A DNA stretch of 64,000 bases, taken from Dechloromonas agitata is5. GTDB lineage: Bacteria; Pseudomonadota; Gammaproteobacteria; Burkholderiales; Rhodocyclaceae. The position numbers were made by a program, and so were the translations under genes. Where the stretch lies: positions 372,001 through 436,000 of the forward strand of contig NZ_KI912532.1 in NCBI RefSeq assembly GCF_000519045.1, given 5' to 3'. Positions 12,651 through 21,188 of the stretch are shown here, piece after piece. Under the pieces are notes generated by a model. It was given only the letters and a program-made list of their open reading frames with translations, did not search any database and was not told the origin of the DNA. Position 1 is the first letter of the stretch. Each line of letters starts with the position of its first letter.

Positions 12651-12899
12651 GGGGTCAGGCCACGGTTTGTGGGTTTGGCGCTCGTGCAACCGTTGTTTTT
12701 CGCGCTTGAGGCGCGCCGGACTTTCTTTTGCTTCGCCAAAAGAAAGTCCGCAAAGAAAAGGCGACCCGGCGTCAGCGCCCGCTGTGCGGGTTCCCTGCGC
12801 TACTCGTCGTTGGCGGGGGCTGCGGAACTCGGGGCTACGCCCCTCAGACAGTCCTCGCCCTTTTTCCGCCAACGCCTCCGTTGCTCGGCGCTGTCGACG
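12651..12899 (+). repeat. Structured repeat, copy A (left arm of an inverted pair)
   Basis: About 250 bp beginning GGGGTCAGGCCACGGTTT. It shows clear similarity along its length to the reverse complement of 12995-13256. Shared blocks include CGTTGTTTTTCGCGCTT, GGGGGCTGCGGAACTCGG and ACAGTCCTCGCCCTTT. It contains a small CGCGC/GCGCG hairpin at 12701-12715 and a long perfect hairpin at 12717-12750. A reading frame across it exists in both copies but looks like a by-product of the repeat. The boundaries are estimated by eye. Confidence 0.85.
12717..12750 (+). repeat. Perfect hairpin inside repeat copy A
   Basis: CGGACTTTCTTTTG (12717-12730) pairs without mismatch with CAAAAGAAAGTCCG (12737-12750) around the 6-base loop CTTCGC. 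The equivalent hairpin in copy B has a different stem sequence but is also perfectly paired. Confidence 0.9.
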
Positions 12900-12994
12900 G
12901 GAAGCTGAAAAGCGCCACGCGCACAAACCGCTGCCGCTACACCATGCTTGGAAAACCACGCTACCGGTTGTTCCGCGACGCCTTTCGGGCCCCT

Positions 12995-13256
12995 TGTGAG
13001 ACGCTGAGCAACGCAGGTTGGGGCGGATAAAGGGCGAGGACTGTTTGAGGGGTGCAGCCCCGAGTTCCGCAGCCCCCGCCCCAACCGAGTAGCGCAAGGA
13101 ACCGGGCAACGCCCGGCGTCGACCAGGGTCGCCTTCTTCTTTGGCTACTTTCTTCTTGGCGACGCAAGAAGAAAGTAGCTCGCGCCGCAAGCGCGAAAAA
13201 CAACGGCTGCACGAGGGCCAAACCCCAAACCCGGCAAAACCGTGGTCTGACCCCAA
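12995..13256 (-). repeat. Structured repeat, copy B (right arm of an inverted pair)
   Basis: About 260 bp, similar to copy A when read on the minus strand from GGGGTCAGACCACGGTTT. The copies differ at many positions, so the pair is old or came from two different family members. The roughly 95 bp between the copies shows no gene. The pair occupies the gap between the chalcone-isomerase-like gene and the MFS operon. Confidence 0.85.
13144..13179 (-). repeat. Perfect hairpin inside repeat copy B
   Basis: GCTACTTTCTTCTTG (13144-13158) pairs perfectly with CAAGAAGAAAGTAGC (13165-13179) around a 6-base loop, with one further G:T pair outside. Relative to copy A each arm has gained a base and changed two others, and the opposite arm changed to match. 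Confidence 0.9.
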
Positions 13257-13282: not shown

Positions 13283-13792
13283 TCACCCCGCCCTCCTCAA
13301 TAACGCCTCCCGCAATTCCGGCGCACTCGTCCGCGCATCCAGCCAGATCGCAAAAAACTGCCGCGCAAACGCCGCCTCGGCAATTTCCCCCAAGGGCTGC
13401 CCGTTGAATAGAAACGCCGCCCCCTCCGGCCGATACACACCCAGAATGTGATCGCCCGCCTTCACATCGGGAAAGAGCCGCGCCATCGCCTCGCCCCAGC
13501 GTTTCAGCAAGGCCTCGTCGGCCACGAAACGACGCATTTCCTTGACGCTCGCCTCGGCAATCGCCTTGCCCGCGATATTCCGCTTGTAGTCCAGGCGCAG
13601 GGCCAGCGGCGGCCGCAAGGGATCGTCGCCGGCCCACAAGGTCGCCTCATAGACCAGAAAGCCGAAGCGGCGGAATTCGCCATTGCCCCAGCGTTTCAGC
13701 CCCGCCGTCGGATCACCGTTGCCCCAGGCCGCGAAGGGCAAGCCGGCCAGGGCGAACAGCAGCGCCCGTCGCCGTTCGGAATCCACTGCCAT
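13283..13792 (-). CDS. Chalcone-isomerase-like exported protein
   Basis: 169 residues from the ATG at 13792; an ATG at 13849 would give 188 but overlap the CFA-like gene. A signal peptide (RRRALLFALAGLPFAAWG) is followed by a chalcone-isomerase-like (Chalcone_3) domain with FRRFGFLVYEATLWAG, LRLDYKRNIAGKAIAEASV and ARQFFAIWLDARTSAPELRE. Bacterial members are not known to act on flavonoids; the fold binds fatty acids in plant FAPs, which suits its place behind a fatty-acid-modifying gene. It starts 25 bp after the CFA-like stop and is the last gene of the left-running operon before the repeat pair. Confidence 0.82.
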   Translation of the reverse strand: MAVDSERRRALLFALAGLPFAAWGNGDPTAGLKRWGNGEFRRFGFLVYEATLWAGDDPLRPPLALRLDYKRNIAGKAIAEASVKEMRRFVADEALLKRWGEAMARLFPDVKAGDHILGVYRPEGAAFLFNGQPLGEIAEAAFARQFFAIWLDARTSAPELREALLRRAG

Positions 13793-13817
13793 CTGCCGCG
13801 CCCCGGGCGCGACGAGA

Positions 13818-15002
13818 TCAACGATGCGCGAGTTCAAACTGGACGACATCGATGCTCCCGGCCCGGAAGCCGGCCTCGCAGTAGCACAGGTACATCCGCC
13901 ACAGGCGACGGAAGGTTTCGTCGAAACCGAGCTTCTGGATTTCCGGCCAGCGGGTTTCGAAGGCAGCGCGCCATTCGGCCAGGGTGCGGGCGTAATCGAG
14001 GCCGAAGGCGTATTCGTTGCGCACGACCAGGCCCTGGCGGGCGGCCGCGCTGCGGAAGGCGGCACGCGAGGGCAACATGCCGCCGGGGAAGACGTATTGC
14101 TGGATGAAATCGGTGCCCTTGCGGTAGGCGGCGAACAGGTCGTCGCGGATGGTGATGCTCTGGATCACCGCCCGCCCACCGGGCTTCAGCGCGCCGGCCA
14201 CGGTCTTGAAGTAGCTCGGCCACCAGCGTTCGCCGACGGCTTCGAACATTTCGATCGACACGACATGGTCGAACTGCTCCTTGTTGTCGCGGTAGTCCTG
14301 CAGGCGCAGGTCGGCCGCCGGTACGCGGTGCTGCGCCCAGGCCAGCTGGGCCGGCGACAGGGTCAGGCCGGTGACCTTGAGCCCGGCCTGATCGGCCAGT
14401 TCGGCAAAGCCGCCCCAGCCGCAGCCGATCTCCAGCACGCTCTGCCCCTGGCTGGCCTGCAGGCAGTGCAGGATGCGCTGGTACTTGGCGTGTTGCGCCG
14501 CCTCCAGCGAACCGTCGTCGACATCGCGGTAGATGGCCGCCGAATAGCTCATGCTCGGGTCGAGCCACTGACTGTAGAAGGCGTTGCCCAGGTCGTAGTG
14601 GGCCATGATGTTGCGCTTGCTGCCGGCCTTGCTGTTGCGGTTCAGCCAGTGGCGGACGCGGGCGGCGAGCAGCTGGCGCCAGGAGCCGTAGAGCGCCTTC
14701 TGCAGCACCTCGCGGTTGGCCACCAGCAGCGTGAGCAGGCCGGTGATGTCCGGCGAATCCCACAGGCCGTCGAGATAGGCTTCGGCCAGGCCGATGTCGC
14801 CGCGCGCCAGCACCCGGCCGAACATCGCCTCGTCGTGCACCTGCAGCGTCACCCCCGCCTCACCGTCGCCGAAAAGGGCGCAGGAGCCGTCCGGCAGACG
14901 CACTTCGAGCAAGCCGCCCTGCAGCTTTTCGAGCAGGTCGAAGACCGTCCGGGTGTCGCGGGCCAGGTTTTCACTGCCGCGCAGAATCAGGGTGTTATTC
15001 AT
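13818..15002 (-). CDS. Cyclopropane-fatty-acid-synthase-like SAM methyltransferase
   Basis: 394 residues. The SAM site is VLEIGCGWGGFAELA (189-203) and the family frame is clear (HYDLGN, EMFEAVG, YVFPGGMLPS). It should transfer a methyl group to the double bond of a membrane phospholipid acyl chain. Compared with E. coli Cfa as I remember it, three bicarbonate ligands are changed: Cys139 becomes Ala155, His266 becomes Gln281, Tyr317 becomes Arg345, while Glu239 is kept (Glu254). The product may therefore not be a plain cyclopropane. It overlaps DUF1365 by four bases and follows the FAD oxidoreductase, an arrangement like genes for methyl-branched or furan fatty acids. Confidence 0.85.
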   Translation of the reverse strand: MNNTLILRGSENLARDTRTVFDLLEKLQGGLLEVRLPDGSCALFGDGEAGVTLQVHDEAMFGRVLARGDIGLAEAYLDGLWDSPDITGLLTLLVANREVLQKALYGSWRQLLAARVRHWLNRNSKAGSKRNIMAHYDLGNAFYSQWLDPSMSYSAAIYRDVDDGSLEAAQHAKYQRILHCLQASQGQSVLEIGCGWGGFAELADQAGLKVTGLTLSPAQLAWAQHRVPAADLRLQDYRDNKEQFDHVVSIEMFEAVGERWWPSYFKTVAGALKPGGRAVIQSITIRDDLFAAYRKGTDFIQQYVFPGGMLPSRAAFRSAAARQGLVVRNEYAFGLDYARTLAEWRAAFETRWPEIQKLGFDETFRRLWRMYLCYCEAGFRAGSIDVVQFELAHR

Positions 15003-15763
15003 TTTGTCGATTCCTGTAGGGGTTGGGTTGCGGGATGCGCGCCGCGGAAGGGCACGCCCTTGAGCCAGAGTTTCAATGCCTGCCAATGGATGCGCGCCAT
15101 CACCCCGAGCGTCAGCAGGGGCATGCGCAGGAAGGCGCCGAGCAGGGCCGCCGCCGACCAGTCGCGCGGCTTGCCGGAGATGGAGGTGAGCAGGAGCTCA
15201 CCCTCGGCATCGTCGTAGTCGATACGGGCCAGTTGCACGGCGCGCTGCAGATGGAAGCGGAAGCGGTAGCCCCCTTCGACTTCGTTGAAGGGCGAGACGT
15301 GGAACAGCTTGGTTGCCGTCATTTCCTCGCCATCGTGCAGCGGCTCGCCATGGCGATGCAGCAGATAGCTGTGCGTGCCGCCGAAAGTGTTGTTCACCTC
15401 GGCCAGGATGGCGATCAGCGCCCCGCTGCGGTCGTGGCAATACCAGAAGCTGACCGGATTGAAGACGTAGCCGAGCACGCGCGGGAAGGTCTGCAGCACG
15501 ATCTCGCCGTCGGCCGGCAGGCCATGCTGGCGCAGCAGGCCTTCGATCCACGGCAATAGCGGGCTGCCGTCACGTGGACCATGATCCTGACTGCGGAAGC
15601 TGAGCAGGTTGGGCTGGTCGACCGAGAAGATGCCGCACTTCGCTGTCGCCAGATCACGCACCGGCAACTGCACGTAGAACACCGGATAGACGAAGGCATT
15701 GACCTTCGGCCGCAGGCGGCGGTGCATGACGTGGCCGAGACAGAGTTGCGGGCGGGTGTTCAT
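14999..15763 (-). CDS. DUF1365 family protein
   Basis: 254 residues. The start LCLGHVMHRRLRPKVNAFVYPVFY, then FNPVSFWYCHDRSG and LAEVNNTFGGTHSYLL are hallmarks of DUF1365. The domain has no proven activity, but it is nearly always encoded between a FAD-dependent oxidoreductase and a CFA-like methyltransferase, as here (8 bp after the former, overlapping the latter). A role in making or delivering a modified acyl chain is the usual inference. No signal peptide is seen; a weak hydrophobic stretch near 215-235 could touch the membrane. Confidence 0.88.
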   Translation of the reverse strand: MNTRPQLCLGHVMHRRLRPKVNAFVYPVFYVQLPVRDLATAKCGIFSVDQPNLLSFRSQDHGPRDGSPLLPWIEGLLRQHGLPADGEIVLQTFPRVLGYVFNPVSFWYCHDRSGALIAILAEVNNTFGGTHSYLLHRHGEPLHDGEEMTATKLFHVSPFNEVEGGYRFRFHLQRAVQLARIDYDDAEGELLLTSISGKPRDWSAAALLGAFLRMPLLTLGVMARIHWQALKLWLKGVPFRGAHPATQPLQESTK

Positions 15764-15770
15764 GGCCGCC

Positions 15771-17081
15771 TCAGGCTGTCTCGGTTTCGTGCAGCACGGC
15801 CGGCGTCTCGCCCTGCCAGGGCGCCCGGATGCCCATGCCGTTCACCACGCGCAGTGCCGACTTCAGGCCGTCTTCGTTGAAACCGTAGCTGCCCCAGGCA
15901 CCGGCCAGCCAGATGCCACCTTCGCCCTGCACATCGGCCAGACGCTGCTGGGCGGCGATGGCGGCGGCATCGAAGATCGGGTGGGCATAGTCGAACTCGG
16001 CGATGACCTTGGCCGGATCCGGCTCGCGCGCCGGGTTCAGCGTGACGACGACCGGCGTTTCGAAGGGCAGCGGTTGCAGCTTGTTGATCAGGTAGGACAC
16101 GCCAACCGGCTGGTCACCCGGTTCGCCCTGGCCGGCAAAGTAGTTCCAGGCCGACCACAGCTTCCGGTCGCGCGGCAGCAGGGCCGGGTCGGTGTGCAAC
16201 AGGGCGCGGTTCGGCTGGTAGCGGATGGCCGACAGCACGTCGCGCTGGCCGTCGCTGGCCGTGAAGCCGAGGATGCCCAAGGCCTGGTCGCTGTGGCAGG
16301 CCATCACCACCTGGTCGAAGCGCTCGCAGCCGCCGTCGTGGGCGACGGTCAGGCCGTCGGCGGCCCGCGTCACGGCGCGCACCGGGCAGGCCAGGCGGAT
16401 GTCGTCGAGCTGGGCGGCGATCTTCTTCACGTATTCGCGGCCGCCGCCCTGCACCGTGCGCCACATCGGCCGGTCGAAGACCTGCAACAGGCCGTGGTTC
16501 TGGCAGAAGCGGATGAAGGTGGCGAGCGGCATGTCGCGCATCTGGCCGGTCGGGCAGGACCAGATGGCGGCCGCCATCGGCAGCAGGTACCAGTCGGAGA
16601 AAGCGGCCGAGTATTTGCCGGCTTCCAGGAAATCGCGCACGCTGCGCTGGTCGTTCGGGTGGCTGACCAGCCAGGCCGTGCTCTCGCGGTTGAAACGCAG
16701 GATGTCGGACAGCATGCTCCAGAAGGAACGGCGGAGCAGGTTGCGCTTCTGTCCGAAGATGGTCGCCAGGTTGCTGCCGGCCCATTCGAGATCGGGGTTT
16801 TCCAGGCTGACCGCGAAGGACATCTCGGTCTCGACGCTGTCCACCCCGAGCAGTGCGAACAGCGCGATCAGGTTGGGGTAGGTTTTTTCGTTGAAGACCA
16901 GGAAACCGGTATCGACCGGGTGCGTCTTGCCTTCCAGCGTCACGTCGACGGTATTGGTATGGCCGCCGAGATAGCTGCCGGCCTCGAACAGCGTCACCTC
17001 ATGCTGGCGGCTGAGCAGCCAGGCACTGGCCAGCCCGGAGATGCCGGCGCCGACGACGGCGATGCGTTGCTTCCTGTTCAT
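15771..17081 (-). CDS. FAD-dependent oxidoreductase (amine-oxidase/desaturase fold)
   Basis: 436 residues. The N-terminal Rossmann motif VVGAGISGLASAWLLS (9-24) and the following YLGGHTNTVDV bind FAD. Near the C-terminus GIWLAGAWGSYGFNEDGLKSA closes the flavin site. It belongs to the NAD(P)/FAD amine-oxidase-like group that accompanies DUF1365 and CFA-like proteins; in furan-fatty-acid pathways a flavoprotein of this kind introduces a double bond after methylation. FolE2 ends 10 bp upstream. Substrate and electron acceptor are not visible. Confidence 0.88.
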   Translation of the reverse strand: MNRKQRIAVVGAGISGLASAWLLSRQHEVTLFEAGSYLGGHTNTVDVTLEGKTHPVDTGFLVFNEKTYPNLIALFALLGVDSVETEMSFAVSLENPDLEWAGSNLATIFGQKRNLLRRSFWSMLSDILRFNRESTAWLVSHPNDQRSVRDFLEAGKYSAAFSDWYLLPMAAAIWSCPTGQMRDMPLATFIRFCQNHGLLQVFDRPMWRTVQGGGREYVKKIAAQLDDIRLACPVRAVTRAADGLTVAHDGGCERFDQVVMACHSDQALGILGFTASDGQRDVLSAIRYQPNRALLHTDPALLPRDRKLWSAWNYFAGQGEPGDQPVGVSYLINKLQPLPFETPVVVTLNPAREPDPAKVIAEFDYAHPIFDAAAIAAQQRLADVQGEGGIWLAGAWGSYGFNEDGLKSALRVVNGMGIRAPWQGETPAVLHETETA

Positions 17082-17091
17082 GATTGCCCCC

Positions 17092-17892
17092 TTAGTCGTT
17101 ACTGCCGTAAAGCTCGGCGTAGGCCGAGTGGTTATGGATGGATTCGAAGTTCTCCGACGCGACCTTCCATTCGGCGACGCGCGGCTCGTTCATCAGGCGC
17201 AGCGCGATGTCGCGCACCAGGTCTTCGACGAACTTCGGGTTGTCGTAGGCACGCTCGGTCACCCACTTCTCGTCCGGCCGCTTCAACAGGCCGAACACCT
17301 CGCAGGAGGCCTCCTCCTCGGCAATGCGCACCAGTTCCTCGATCGCCATCGGCTGGCGCAGGCGGGCTTCCAGCGTGATGTGCGAGCGCTGGTTATGGGC
17401 GCCGTAGTCGGAAATCTTCTTCGAGCACGGGCACAGGCTGGTCACGGCGGCAACGACGCGCAGCGTCAGGTCGGTGCGCTGACCTTCGCGGCGTTCGGCG
17501 ATCAACGCCACGTCGTAGTCGAGCAGGCTTTCAACGCCCGATACGGGCGCCGCCTTGCGGATGAAGTACGGGAAGCTCAGTTCGATGCGGCCGCTGCGTG
17601 CATCGAGGCGCAGCAGCATGGCGTCGAGCAGGCGGCACAGACCGTCCTGGGTCAGCGCCTCGCGCTGCATTTCGATCAACTCGACGAAGCGCGACATGTG
17701 GGTGCCCTTGACCTCCGGCGGCAGGCCAACGGTCATCGCCAGCGTGGCGACGGTAGCGACCTGCTCACCGTCAGCACCGGCCAGTTGCAGCGGATAACGC
17801 AGTCCCTTGACGCCAACCTGCTGGATGGCGAGACGGCGGTTATCCGGGGTGGCCTGCACATCGGGCAGGAAGATATTCTCGGGTGCGTTCAT
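17092..17892 (-). CDS. folE2: GTP cyclohydrolase IB (FolE2)
   Basis: 266 residues. The central [20 protein letters not shown] carries the metal-binding Cys (154 or 156) and the neighbouring His typical of FolE2; [10 protein letters not shown] and EDLVRDIA also match. FolE2 opens GTP to 7,8-dihydroneopterin triphosphate, first step of folate and pterin synthesis, with broader metal tolerance than the zinc-only FolE. Placement inside a light/oxidative-stress-type operon, 33 bp after the glutathione peroxidase, suggests induction when zinc enzymes or folates are damaged, or when photolyase-type pterin cofactors are needed. Whether a second folE exists cannot be seen here. Confidence 0.93.
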
Positions 17893-17925: not shown

Positions 17926-18495
17926 TTAGGGGGCGTTCAGAAATTCGTCGATCTTCTTCAGCAGGTCCTTGTCTTCCGGTTTGGTGAAGCTGGTGTAGGC
18001 CACCACCTTCGTACCGTCGCGGTTGATCAGGTACTTGTGGAAGTTCCACTTCGGGGTGCTGCCGGTGATGTCGGCCAACTGGCGATAGAAGGCGTTGGCA
18101 CCCTTGCCCTTGACCACCGTCTTGCTCGCCATCGGGAACTCGACGCCGTAGGTCAGGCGGCAGAAATCAGCGATCTCCTTGTCGCTGCCCGGCTCCTGCT
18201 CACCAAAGTCGTTGGACGGGAAGCCGAGCACGACCAGGCCCTTGTCCTTCAGCCGGGCGTAGAGCTTTTCCAGGCCGTCGTACTGCGAGGTGAAACCGCA
18301 GTAGCTGGCGGTATTCACCACCAGGATGACCTTGCCGGCGTACTGACAGAGCGGCATCGGCTTGCCGTCCTGCAGGGTCGTGAAATTGTGATCGAGCAGC
18401 GAGGGACAGGCAGCCGAGGCCCCGAGCGGCACGACACTGGCCGAGAGCAGGCCGGCGATACCGAACCAACGTTTGAAGAATGTGTTCATGTTCAA
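17926..18495 (-). CDS. Periplasmic glutathione-peroxidase-family protein (Cys type)
   Basis: 189 residues. A signal peptide (FGIAGLLSASVVPLGASA) directs it to the periplasm. The peroxidatic Cys66 lies in VNTASYCGFTSQY, Gln100 in FGEQEPG and Trp150-Asn151 in KWNFHKYL, the usual catalytic set; Cys112 may be the resolving residue. Cys-type members generally take electrons from thioredoxin-like proteins rather than glutathione. It is first in a six-gene left-running operon and has a well-formed promoter (TTGACA, 17 bp, TATCTT). Its role is probably to reduce lipid or organic peroxides. Confidence 0.9.
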   Translation of the reverse strand: MNMNTFFKRWFGIAGLLSASVVPLGASAACPSLLDHNFTTLQDGKPMPLCQYAGKVILVVNTASYCGFTSQYDGLEKLYARLKDKGLVVLGFPSNDFGEQEPGSDKEIADFCRLTYGVEFPMASKTVVKGKGANAFYRQLADITGSTPKWNFHKYLINRDGTKVVAYTSFTKPEDKDLLKKIDEFLNAP

Positions 18496-18506
18496 CCTCG
18501 CTTTGT

Positions 18507-18521
18507 TTTGTCCTAGACAAA
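18507..18521. promoter_or_regulatory. Palindrome in the leader of the peroxidase operon
   Basis: TTTGTC-CTA-GACAAA is a perfect 6-bp inverted repeat. It lies just downstream of the predicted transcription start of the left-running operon. A related 15-mer TTTGTTCAGGACAAA at 18581-18595 matches it at 12 of 15 positions. It probably binds the adjacent MerR-type regulator (inference). Confidence 0.6.
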
Positions 18522-18537
18522 TTACGTCTTTGTTCGT

Positions 18538-18566
18538 AAGATAGTGAGCAAAGAATCATTTGTCAA
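18538..18566 (-). promoter_or_regulatory. Promoter of the peroxidase-folE2-lipid operon
   Basis: Read on the minus strand: TTGACA (18566-18561), 17-bp spacer, TATCTT (18543-18538). The -35 hexamer is a perfect consensus. It overlaps the first 11-bp repeat of the operator cluster, so a bound regulator would cover it. Confidence 0.7.
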
Positions 18567-18591
18567 CGGTTTGTCTAACTTTTGTTCAGGA
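18559..18591. promoter_or_regulatory. Three 11-bp direct repeats, CarH-type operator candidate
   Basis: TTTGTCAACGG (18559-18569), TTTGTCTAACT (18570-18580) and TTTGTTCAGGA (18581-18591) are head-to-tail with exactly 11-bp spacing. CarH tetramers are known to bind tandem 11-bp repeats. The first repeat covers the -35 of the left operon and the third covers the AGGA ribosome site of the regulator gene itself, so binding could repress both directions. Confidence 0.65.
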
Positions 18592-18597
18592 CAAATT

Positions 18598-19500
18598 ATG
18601 AGCACCCTCAGTTTCAATATTGCTGCAGTCGAGCGCGACACCGGGCTGTCCAAGGATGTCCTGCGCATGTGGGAGCGGCGCTACGGCTTTCCGGTTCCCG
18701 AACGCGATGCCAACGGCGAGCGCCTCTACCCGGCTGCCCAGGTCGAACGCCTGCGCCTGATCAAACGCCTGATGGATCAAGGACATCGACCGGGCAAGCT
18801 GATTGCTGCCCCGGAAGAGGAACTGGCCGCGCTCGCCCCGCGCCGGCCGCGCGAGACGGCCGCCCCCCTGCCGAAAGCGGCGGGCGACAGCCTGGACGAG
18901 TTGATCGAATACATCCGCCGCCACGATGGGCCGGGTTTCCAGCAGGCCATGCAGCAACGCCTGGTGCGCCAGGGCTTGCAGGCGTTTGTCCAGGACACCG
19001 TGGCCCCGCTGACGCGCCGCGTCGGCGAAGCCTGGGAGGAAGGCAACATCGAGGTCTTCGAGGAACACCTGTTCACCGAACTGACCAAGCGCCTGCTCCG
19101 CCAGACCATCGCCACACTGCCCGCCGGCCGCGGCCCGCGCGTGCTGCTGACCACCGTGCCGGAAGAACAGCACGTCCTCGGCCTGCTCATGGTCGAGGCC
19201 CTGCTCGCTCTCGAAGGTGCCGAGTGCATCCCGCTCGGCACGCAGATGCCGCTGCTCGACATCGGCCGCGCCGCCGAAGCCCACGCGGCCGATATCGTCG
19301 CGCTCTCCTTCTCCATCGCCTTCCCGCAGCGCCAGATCGGCGGCCTGGTTCAGCACCTGCGCCAGATCCTGCCGCCGACGGTCGCCCTCTGGGTCGGCGG
19401 CGGTGGCATTCGGCGCCTGGCGGCGCAACCCGGGGTCGCCTTGCTACCCCAGCTACCCGACGCCATCGCCGCCCTGCAAGCCTGGCGAGGCACCCACTGA
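18598..19500 (+). CDS. B12-binding MerR-family regulator (CarH/LitR-type photoreceptor)
   Basis: 300 residues. The MerR winged helix is at 5-72 (NIAAVERDTGLSKDVLRMWERRYGF). A helical cap follows with Trp146, Glu156 and His157, reproducing the W-x9-E-H motif that covers adenosylcobalamin in CarH. The Rossmann B12 domain has Glu190, His192 and Gly195 (EQHVLG); His192 lies 35 residues after His157, the spacing I recall between His142 and His177 of Thermus CarH. In the dark, B12-bound tetramers repress; light breaks the Co-C bond and releases DNA. The ATG has an AGGA site 6 bp upstream. It is divergent from the peroxidase operon and begins the photolyase operon. Confidence 0.88.
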   Translation: MSTLSFNIAAVERDTGLSKDVLRMWERRYGFPVPERDANGERLYPAAQVERLRLIKRLMDQGHRPGKLIAAPEEELAALAPRRPRETAAPLPKAAGDSLDELIEYIRRHDGPGFQQAMQQRLVRQGLQAFVQDTVAPLTRRVGEAWEEGNIEVFEEHLFTELTKRLLRQTIATLPAGRGPRVLLTTVPEEQHVLGLLMVEALLALEGAECIPLGTQMPLLDIGRAAEAHAADIVALSFSIAFPQRQIGGLVQHLRQILPPTVALWVGGGGIRRLAAQPGVALLPQLPDAIAALQAWRGTH

Positions 19501-19661: not shown

Positions 19662-21188
19662 ATGAACCGCCTGTTCCTGATCCTCGGCGATCAGCTCCAT
19701 CCCGATCCGCACCCGCTGCTCGTCGACTTCGACCCGGCGCACGACCGCCTGCTGATGGTCGAGGCCAGCGAGGAATCGACCCATGTCTGGAGCCACCAGG
19801 CACGCAGCGCGCTTTTCCTGGCCGCCATGCGCCACCGCGCCGCCGCCTTCCGTGCCGCCGGACTGCCGCTGACCTACCGGCAGCTGGGCGAGCACCCGCA
19901 GGCCAGCCTCAGCGCCACCCTGTGCGCTGAAATTGGTAGCACCCGCCAGGTCGTCATGCTCGAAGCCGGCGACTACCGGCTGCAGCAGGCGATCCAGAGT
20001 GCCTGCACGGCGGCTGGCGTTGCACTGGAAAACCGCCCCGATCCGCACTTTCTCTGCGCGCAGGGTGAATTCAACGCCTGGGCCGGCGACAAGACGAACC
20101 TGCGCCTCGAATTCTTCTACCGCTGGCAACGTAAGCGGCACGGCATCCTGATGGCCGGCGATACGCCAGTCGGTGGCCAGTGGAATTTCGATGCCGACAA
20201 TCGCCAGTCCTTCGGCCGCCAGGGGCCAGGCCTGTTACCGCCGCCTCCGCACTTCGCGCCCGACGCCCTGACCCGCTCGGCCATCGCCGATGTCGAACGC
20301 CATTTCCCCGAGCATCCGGGCCGCACCGCCCATTTCGGCTGGCCGGTGACGACGGCACAGGCCCACACCGCGCTCGACGACTTCATTACCCACCGCCTGC
20401 CGGAATTCGGCCGCTGGCAGGACGCCATGTGGAGCGGCCAGCCCTTCCTGTGGCACTCCCTGCTCTCGGCCGCGCTGAACCTCAAGCTGCTCGACCCGCG
20501 TACGGTGATCGGCGCCACCGTCGCCGCCTACGAATCCGGCCGCGTGCCGCTCGCTGCTGCCGAAGGCTTCATCCGGCAGATACTCGGCTGGCGCGAATTC
20601 GTCCGCGGCGTCTATGGGCGACAGATGCCGGCGCTGGCCGAAGCCAACCAGTACGGCCACACCACACCGCTGCCCGGCTGGTTCTGGACCGGCCACACCC
20701 ATGCCGCCTGCCTGGCCGCCGCCATCGGCCAAACGCTGGAGCACGGCTACGCCCATCACATCCAGCGCCTGATGATCACCGGCAACTTCGCCCTGCTCGC
20801 CGGCCTGCAACCGCGCCAGGTGGCCGACTGGTATCTTGCTGTCTATGTCGACGCCGTGGCCTGGGTTGAGGAACCGAACACCCTGGGCATGGCGCTCAAC
20901 GCTTGGCCGGGCATGACCAGCAAGCCCTACTGCGCCAGCGGCGCCTACATCGACCGGATGAGCGACTATTGCCGCGGCTGCCGCTACAACCCGAAAACCC
21001 GCGTCGGCCCCGGTGCCTGCCCCTTCACCACGCTGTACTGGGATTTCCTGGCCCGCCACCGCCAGCGCTTCGCCGCCAATCCCCGGATGGCCATGCCGCT
21101 GAAAAATCTCGACCGCCTGAGCGACACCGAACTAAACGCCATCCGCCACCAGGCAGCGAACCTGCGCGCCGATTTCGACGGGGTGTGA
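19662..21188 (+). CDS. FeS-BCP photolyase/cryptochrome (PhrB/CryB type)
   Basis: 508 residues. The N-terminus FLILGDQLHPD is the DPRP/FeS-BCP start rather than a classical photolyase start. Cys350, Cys437, Cys440 and Cys453 correspond almost exactly to the four 4Fe-4S ligands reported for Agrobacterium PhrB (350, 438, 441, 454). The FAD domain contains GWREFVRGVYG, HHIQRLMITGNFALL and EEPNTLGMALNAW. Family members repair 6-4 photoproducts or act as blue-light regulators and carry a lumazine antenna. It shares an operon with the B12 regulator and DUF2256, so it should be light-induced. Confidence 0.92.
   Translation: MNRLFLILGDQLHPDPHPLLVDFDPAHDRLLMVEASEESTHVWSHQARSALFLAAMRHRAAAFRAAGLPLTYRQLGEHPQASLSATLCAEIGSTRQVVMLEAGDYRLQQAIQSACTAAGVALENRPDPHFLCAQGEFNAWAGDKTNLRLEFFYRWQRKRHGILMAGDTPVGGQWNFDADNRQSFGRQGPGLLPPPPHFAPDALTRSAIADVERHFPEHPGRTAHFGWPVTTAQAHTALDDFITHRLPEFGRWQDAMWSGQPFLWHSLLSAALNLKLLDPRTVIGATVAAYESGRVPLAAAEGFIRQILGWREFVRGVYGRQMPALAEANQYGHTTPLPGWFWTGHTHAACLAAAIGQTLEHGYAHHIQRLMITGNFALLAGLQPRQVADWYLAVYVDAVAWVEEPNTLGMALNAWPGMTSKPYCASGAYIDRMSDYCRGCRYNPKTRVGPGACPFTTLYWDFLARHRQRFAANPRMAMPLKNLDRLSDTELNAIRHQAANLRADFDGV

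Follow-up and report, generated by a model that had tools for sequence, protein, structure and literature searches.

The window, the whole stretch of 64,000 nucleotides analysed here, corresponds to C1:372001-436000 of the Dechloromonas agitata is5 genome, which was searched as one contig of 3,627,226 bases. It contains a carH/LitR-type regulator gene that diverges from a series of leftward genes and precedes a photolyase-related gene. Gene spacing suggests an operon on each side, the leftward one predicted to begin with the glutathione-peroxidase-like gene. The genes are listed below by position, strand and product; their frequency as neighbours was counted at 80 named loci, with flanks of up to 5 kb and several flanks shorter.

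13283..13792, minus strand: chalcone-isomerase-like protein (start taken from the frame of ORF 13283-14065; 41/80 loci)
13818..15002, minus strand: cyclopropane fatty acid synthase-like methyltransferase, CMAS (start taken from the frame of ORF 13818-15086; 56/80 loci)
14999..15763, minus strand: DUF1365 protein (58/80 loci)
15771..17081, minus strand: FAD-dependent amine-oxidase-like protein (beside CarH in 60/80 loci)
17092..17892, minus strand: GTP cyclohydrolase FolE2 (above the NCBIfam cutoff; 32/80 loci)
17926..18489, minus strand: glutathione-peroxidase-like protein, predicted by eye to be exported (Pfam GSHPx, 1e-34; 40/80 loci)
18598..19500, plus strand: carH/LitR-type regulator (MerR winged helix at residues 7-63, linker, B12-binding four-helix bundle, Rossmann domain)
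19662..21188, plus strand: deoxyribodipyrimidine photolyase-related protein of the cryptochrome/photolyase kind (Pfam DPRP, 3.9e-66; downstream of carH)

The photolyase-related gene occurred within the examined flank in only 5/80 loci. Between carH and this gene lies a short frame that we take to be DUF2256-like. No carotenoid gene was found among the neighbors of carH in the window. Farther left, between an MFS-like gene and the chalcone-isomerase-like gene, window positions 12663-13233 hold nested long inverted repeats of 102 nt (84%) and 65 nt (85%).

The region between the two divergent genes is dense with putative operator and promoter elements:

18507..18521, unstranded: palindrome 1, 15 bp, TTTGTCCTAGACAAA (conserved in the family together with palindrome 2)
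18514..18519, plus strand: rightward -35 box TAGACA (from a promoter scan of 18400-18700)
18529..18533, plus strand: candidate half-site TTTGT, 22 bp past the start of palindrome 1 (kept in the window's clade only)
18537..18542, plus strand: rightward -10 box TAAGAT (overlapping the leftward -10 box, the two jointly reading TAnnnTA at 18537-18543)
18538..18543, minus strand: leftward -10 box TATCTT (from the promoter scan)
18559..18569, plus strand: 11-bp repeat 1, TTTGTCAACGG (exact match)
18561..18566, minus strand: leftward -35 box TTGACA, inside repeat 1 (from the promoter scan)
18570..18580, plus strand: 11-bp repeat 2, TTTGTCTAACT (the additional unit found in the window's own clade)
18581..18591, plus strand: 11-bp repeat 3, TTTGTTCAGGA (the left half of palindrome 2, holding the AGGA ribosome site)
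18581..18595, unstranded: palindrome 2, 15 bp, TTTGTTCAGGACAAA (on the carH ribosome site)

A first-pass annotation of this DNA had reported three TTTGTY repeats with starts exactly 11 bp apart, two TTTGT...ACAAA palindromes, and an overlap of the repeats with the leftward -35 box and the carH ribosome site. All of these were reproduced: the repeats begin at 18559, 18570, and 18581, the palindromes occupy 18507-18521 and 18581-18595, TTGACA falls in repeat 1, and AGGA (18588-18591, ahead of the carH ATG at 18598) falls in repeat 3. Published CarH operators are described as tandem 11-bp repeats of a TnnACA half-site, one of which encloses the -35 box; Thermus has three such repeats and Bacillus megaterium four (PMC8156234, PMC9304148). 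This core fits all three repeats, which read TGTCAA, TGTCTA, and TGTTCA on the plus strand; the array thus has the form of a CarH-type operator, with 3/3 TGTnnA cores and TTGACA within the first repeat. When random sequences were drawn from a first-order Markov model of the AT-rich spacer itself, the triple appeared in 6 of 200,000 draws and the two palindromes in 0 of 200,000. The first-pass annotation had also proposed looking for the same repeats elsewhere in the genome; with up to 2 mismatches allowed, the triple was found once, at 0 mismatches, and a backwards control also gave one match within 2.

Several features go beyond that annotation, namely, a rightward promoter, a -10 element shared by both directions, and a constancy across the family that belongs to the palindromes and not to the three repeats. 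The promoter scan returned exactly two promoters, compared with 0.1 expected in shuffles: TTGACA-17-TATCTT leftward and TAGACA-17-TAAGAT rightward, their -10 boxes overlapping on opposite strands and each -10 hexamer matching at just 4/6 positions. The rightward -35 box is at the same time the inner, promoter-proximal half of palindrome 1, a TnnACA half-site. Assuming the usual 7 bp between -10 box and start, transcription is predicted to begin at 18531 leftward and at 18549 rightward, 18 bp apart. In sequence form, the overlapping symmetric -10 boxes and the start distance of about 18 bp are those of a bidirectional promoter; 18 bp is given as the commonest start-site distance at such promoters in Escherichia coli (PMC12825309). 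The same scan reported a terminator-like stem at window positions 18527-18554, spanning the shared -10 box (1 found, 0.5 expected), which is probably due to chance.

The regulator is matched by the Pfam models MerR_1 (3.9e-14), B12-binding_2 (2.2e-9), and B12-binding (1.6e-8), and its closest solved structure by sequence is Thermus CarH (5c8d, 6.1e-31). Its predicted fold (mean pLDDT, 88.5) retrieved Thermus CarH chains as the top Foldseek matches at about 32% identity, with its B12 part aligning to them at about 2.7 Å. The predicted whole chain does not superpose on CarH, probably because the model places the two domains differently relative to each other. In its own genome the regulator was the sole match at E values up to 0.001; the nearest named relative, at 84% identity, belongs to a Dechloromonas MAG, and a class-wide search at E values up to 1e-40 returned 9/321 genomes, the window's own included.

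The first-pass annotation held that the regulator keeps every residue expected of a CarH-like photoreceptor, which proved true of the adenosyl cap and the lower ligand. The motifs W146-x9-E156-H157 and E190-x-H192-x-x-G195 are both there, without variation across 17/17 aligned sequences, the window's included, and W-x9-E-H occurs in 108/109 distinct relatives (from 114 loci, of 118 tried). The two His residues do stand 35 positions apart, with 34 residues between them rather than the 35 originally given. Three other positions depart from expectation. The residue directly after W146, at the position of Thermus His132, is Glu, so that the light-state bis-His ligation of Thermus CarH lacks its His here; among the 109 relatives this position is Glu in 55, Met in 30, Ala in 9, Leu in 8, Thr in 2, and His in 1. 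The GxxH signature reads EEQH, with Glu replacing a Gly that is found in 14/109 relatives. The V/T position of SxV/T is Ser (S237-F238-S239, invariant in 17/17). Accordingly, the SignatureFinder B12-photoreceptor signature is matched strictly in three of its four elements (GEAW, EH, and GTQMP, with GxxH absent), while within ExHx2G-x41-SxV/T-x22-27-GG the ExHxxG motif, the x41 spacing, the first Ser, and x27-GG all fit, as counted by hand. The NCBIfam equivalog TransRegCarH (NF052513) scored 130.6 bits, under its cutoff of 400 bits.

In domain terms, the protein combines an N-terminal MerR winged helix, both B12 domains, and the W-x9-E-H cap, as in CarH/class I LitR; presence of the B12-binding Rossmann domain places it outside class II LitR. 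The W-x9-E-H adenosyl cap is reported not to occur in CarA and, together with the B12 motif, is said to define CarH homologues (PMC8156234, PMC9304148). Two cobalamin adenosyltransferase families, which make adenosylcobalamin, are encoded in the same genome.

To gauge which operator elements are conserved, we searched family genomes for two palindromes separated by 40 to 70 bp. This pattern was present in 154/395 genomes, and the backwards control gave at least one match. Among 199 family genomes for which the regulator (E up to 1e-30) and the pair were scored per genome and the two lists matched by hand, the pair occurred in 69/80 genomes with the regulator and in 0/119 without it. Eleven of the 80 regulator-bearing genomes lacked the pattern, and a few matches sat away from the carH locus (e.g., in genomes G018 and G145). 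Loci of this type were found in Dechloromonas, Azonexus, Zoogloea, and Accumulibacter relatives, as well as in Ramlibacter and Noviherbaspirillum.

The distance between palindrome centers, taken at at least 115 places in 112 genomes, fell into two classes, 62 to 64 bp (n = 67, of which 57 at 63 bp) and 72 to 77 bp (n = 48, of which 37 at 74 bp), with no intermediate value among the 115 listed places. Wider gaps of 71 to 100 bp were found in only 7/395 genomes (control, 2 matches in one genome); thus, the two classes are not an artefact of the upper limit of the search pattern. A set of named genomes, partly overlapping the first set, gave 80 loci, of which 4 were unreadable, 9 had no pair, and 67 had a pair, at 62 to 63 bp in 24 and at 72 to 76 bp in 43. 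In other family genomes the pair was present in 58/67 readable loci, one of them at 86 bp (52 distinct sequences), a count that contains some duplicates of the same locus, the window's among them. Distinct operators numbered 111, and 96 of these have a spacing of exactly 63 bp (n = 39) or 74 bp (n = 57).

Across the 96 operators, TAnnnTA stood at the predicted offset in 85, compared with no more than 3 at any other tested offset (17 to 51). The T corresponding to position 18537, which lies outside the leftward hexamer, was kept in 33/39 operators of the 63-bp class and in 57/57 of the 74-bp class. Because a leftward promoter alone would not need this T, its retention provides the strongest support for a shared -10 box. 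The inner palindrome halves carried TnnACA/TGTnnA in 37/39 and 28/39 operators of the 63-bp class and in 57/57 and 50/57 of the 74-bp class. Palindrome 2 is partly a ribosome site and palindrome 1 partly a -35 box; thus, their conservation need not entirely reflect protein binding. Judged from these alignments, what is constant across the family is a pair of palindromes flanking a predicted bidirectional promoter.

Starting from parts, conservation, and spacing seen in the sequence, and treating transcription starts, operons, binding, B12 loading, light release, and repression as predicted steps, we consider it likely that a B12-binding repressor locks a bidirectional promoter in the dark and that light releases both directions. 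The regulator would be an adenosylcobalamin photoreceptor-repressor of the CarH/class I LitR kind. In darkness, its oligomer would occupy two operator blocks flanking the promoter: on the left, palindrome 1, whose inner half holds the rightward -35 box; on the right, the 11-bp array, with repeat 1 on the leftward -35 box and palindrome 2 at its far end, over the carH ribosome site. A single symmetric -10 box (TAnnnTA) with 17-bp spacers would serve both directions. With both blocks occupied, both -35 boxes would be hidden, and carH and the photolyase-related gene on the right would be shut together with the glutathione peroxidase, FolE2, FAD oxidase, DUF1365, and cyclopropane fatty acid synthase genes on the left. 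Illumination would break the Co-C bond and take the oligomer off the DNA, both promoters would fire, and fresh CarH synthesis would reset the switch. Several observations count against this reading: the change of His132 to Glu, the pairless genomes (11/80) and off-locus pairs, the 4/6 matches of the -10 hexamers, and the scarcity of the photolyase gene at these loci (5/80).

A more specific form of this mechanism, in which one dark oligomer (or two that touch) bridges both palindromes over the shared -10 box, folds the promoter into a compact closed complex, and is opened by light without a His132 switch, is possible but doubtful. The two spacing classes lie near whole helical turns, about 6 for 62 to 64 bp and about 7 for 72 to 77 bp, which would let both palindromes face the same side of the helix. 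In a tree built from 72 regulators, parsimony calls for no fewer than 3 changes of spacing class, and 2 changes are forced by well-supported branches. A shift between 6 and 7 turns therefore appears to have happened at least twice, be it by gain or by loss, which the tree does not tell apart. Such spacing fits bridging, yet the phase of the -35 boxes alone would give the same numbers, a loop of 63 to 74 bp is tight, and the related genomes in these counts are not independent.

The first-pass annotation envisaged a single tetramer on the three tandem 11-bp repeats, shutting both directions until light arrives; binding would then resemble that of Thermus CarH, and palindrome 1 would be no operator. 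The annotation's description of the locus was confirmed in part and its interpretation supported in part: a CarH-type two-way switch remains the best reading, but a tetramer on the array alone is probably an incomplete mechanism, and we regard this version as unlikely. The exact TGTnnA matches with a -35 box inside one repeat agree with it, as does the published view that in Sorangium one CarH site per region governs overlapping divergent promoters (PMC9304148). Where the middle repeat exists, all three repeats are kept in 41 to 42 of 42 operators. However, the middle repeat carries TGTnnA in 42/57 distinct 74-bp operators and is absent from the other 15, the 39 distinct 63-bp operators have no room for it and fit two repeats only, and palindrome 1 persists in operators with a reduced array.

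In the named operator set, which is richer in near relatives of the window, the repeat 1 slot matched TTTGTY at 5/6 positions or better in 30/37 operators of the 74-bp class compared with 7/20 of the 63-bp class. The repeat 2 slot did so in 35/37 of the 74-bp operators, and the half-site at 18529 did so in 35/37 compared with 2/20 of the 63-bp class. In the first set, the leading TT of repeat 1 was kept in only 3/21 63-bp and 7/24 74-bp sequences, whereas GTCAA of the -35 box was kept in 35/39 and 54/57 distinct operators of the two classes; outside the window's clade, repeat 1 is thus largely the -35 box. Of the two long-spacing groups on the regulator tree, one is rich in Accumulibacter and the other is the clade nearest the window. 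The middle repeat and the half-site at the place of 18529 occur together in 34/37 named operators at exactly 74 bp, one of these 37 falling in the Accumulibacter-rich group. On this comparison, the triple array is a clade-level elaboration that is well kept in the window's own clade.

The palindromes as the family-wide constant would also suit a classical MerR mode, in which each 15-bp palindrome is bound by its own dimer and the 11-bp step simply reflects the helical turn. One long-spacing group (72 to 76 bp) comprises six rows, five of which carry the name Accumulibacter; it has the extra turn even though the middle repeat is absent in 6/6, as this mode would allow. We nevertheless hold it to be improbable, since the outer palindrome halves seldom fit the TnnACA core (1/39 and 9/39 in the 63-bp class; 0/57 and 4/57 in the 74-bp class). 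For Myxococcus CarA, moreover, inverted repeats were proposed first, and later binding work is described as suggesting direct repeats (PMC8156234, PMC9304148).

That the light-state His and the signature Gly are missing raises the question of whether the protein senses light at all, or instead represses the same promoter in response to B12 level or redox state or, like CarA, independently of B12. In Thermus CarH, His132 is described as the cobalt ligand of the lit state, and tetramer break-up as largely dependent on it; most of an H132A variant stayed tetrameric after light, although an earlier report cited in the same source has it coming apart (PMC10442372). Other B12 photoreceptors do without this residue, having Arg in CtMerR and Gln or Tyr in two photocobilins, and CtMerR still cleaves its Co-C bond when illuminated (PMC11796333). 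Because the position varies in this way, we treat His132 as nondefining for CarH/class I LitR. The adenosyl-capping motif that CarA lacks is retained in nearly all relatives, and genes for photolyase-related and glutathione-peroxidase-like proteins adjoin the regulator, so that a repressor blind to light seems quite unlikely. A MerR-type activator that realigns an over-long spacer would account for the MerR domain, but both spacers have the normal length of 17 bp and need no realignment and the half-sites lie on the -35 boxes rather than on the spacer, which leaves this explanation very little probability.

If the repressor acts at the carH locus as proposed, it may have further targets. With up to 3 mismatches tolerated, a genome-wide scan found 38 matches to the palindrome compared with 33 in the backwards control; thus, only the best sites are informative. 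A stricter scan that also demanded a -10 box at N17 (up to 3 mismatches) gave 13 matches and 22 in the control, and its sites at 0 to 1 mismatches, for which the control was compared by total only, were those of carH, a DUF3429 gene, and an ABC transporter gene:

C1:3055995-3056030: DUF3429 gene site (palindrome and TGGACA-17-TATAGT upstream)
C1:2443967-2444002: ABC transporter ATPase gene site (palindrome 63 bp before the gene; TGGACA-17-CACAAT)

At DUF3429 loci of the same genus, the palindrome recurred at 0 to 1 mismatches in 10/10, compared with 0/8 in other families. It lay 124 to 140 bp upstream of the match or about 875 to 926 bp upstream, and at the longer distance the intervening gene resembles a short-chain dehydrogenase by eye. 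By this comparison of sequences, the DUF3429 gene is probably a second member of the regulon. The ABC transporter gene was not retained as a firm target, as the palindrome stood just upstream in 1/8 same-genus loci, that of the window's genome itself. Three other sites were set aside: C1:3055570 lies inside the DUF3429 coding frame, C1:864677 lies inside a long ORF, and no ORF of at least 80 aa is listed at C1:2988355.

Among the closest known systems is Thermus thermophilus CarH (PDB entries 5C8D, 5C8E, and 5C8F), which shares the domain order, the fold, the W-x9-E-H cap, the ExHxxG lower ligand, and three tandem 11-bp half-sites with the -35 box within one. The window differs in the missing His132 equivalent, in sequence (about 32% identity over the fold match), in having a second palindromic operator beyond the two-way promoter, and in the absence of a carotenoid gene among the neighbors. 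Sorangium cellulosum CarH at PcrtSc1/PcrtSc2 likewise pairs one B12 repressor and 11-bp repeats with overlapping divergent promoters; its divergent carotenoid genes are reported to be repressed in the dark with B12, with one CarH site per region (PMC9304148). Shutting both directions at once is thus not a new idea. In Sorangium, however, the targets are carotenoid genes, and the available text of that source makes no mention of paired palindromes at a fixed helical spacing (PMC9304148).

With respect to target genes, the window resembles the class II LitR regulators of Pseudomonas (PmlR1/PmlR2 and PplR), whose described targets include photolyase/cryptochrome, an FAD oxidoreductase, a UfaM-type methyltransferase, and FolE, and which also use two sites, one on the -35 box and one in the 5' leader (PMC9758184). 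Unlike the window regulator, those proteins are described as having no second B12 domain, a short-LOV partner that senses the light, and the site TGTACA-N12-TGTACA (PMC9758184). A possible link to furan fatty acids is suggested solely by likeness to this class II gene set. Bidirectional promoters of E. coli, such as PacrA/acrR, share the symmetric -10 box, frequent 18-bp start distances, and an autorepressor gene on one side, whereas the window has a light/B12-type repressor and half-sites on both -35 boxes (PMC12825309).

Among the literature matches listed, a coverage from which subscription journals are mostly missing, we found no published account of a system of this kind; two features are new relative to those matches, a palindrome pair spaced at nearly whole turns and a shared -10 promoter whose two -35 boxes each carry a half-site. 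If the proposed mechanism is true, the locus would offer a naturally occurring two-way promoter under light control, in which each -35 box bears a repressor half-site, and would tie B12 photoreception to genes for fatty acid modification, folate, and photolyase. It would also make testable how CarH-type proteins without His132 release DNA and by what means both directions of a bidirectional promoter are silenced together, and so small a two-way light switch could serve optogenetics.

A further occurrence of the palindrome was noted in genome G717 (L218:350-1477). There, a row of genes encoding a START-like protein, a short LOV protein (GRNCRFLQG), and the ABC transporter is preceded by a copy with 1 mismatch, and a DUF2256-like gene flanks this copy on its opposite side (all genes recognized by eye). 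By its position, this candidate site of a B12 sensor may control the gene of a blue-light sensor.
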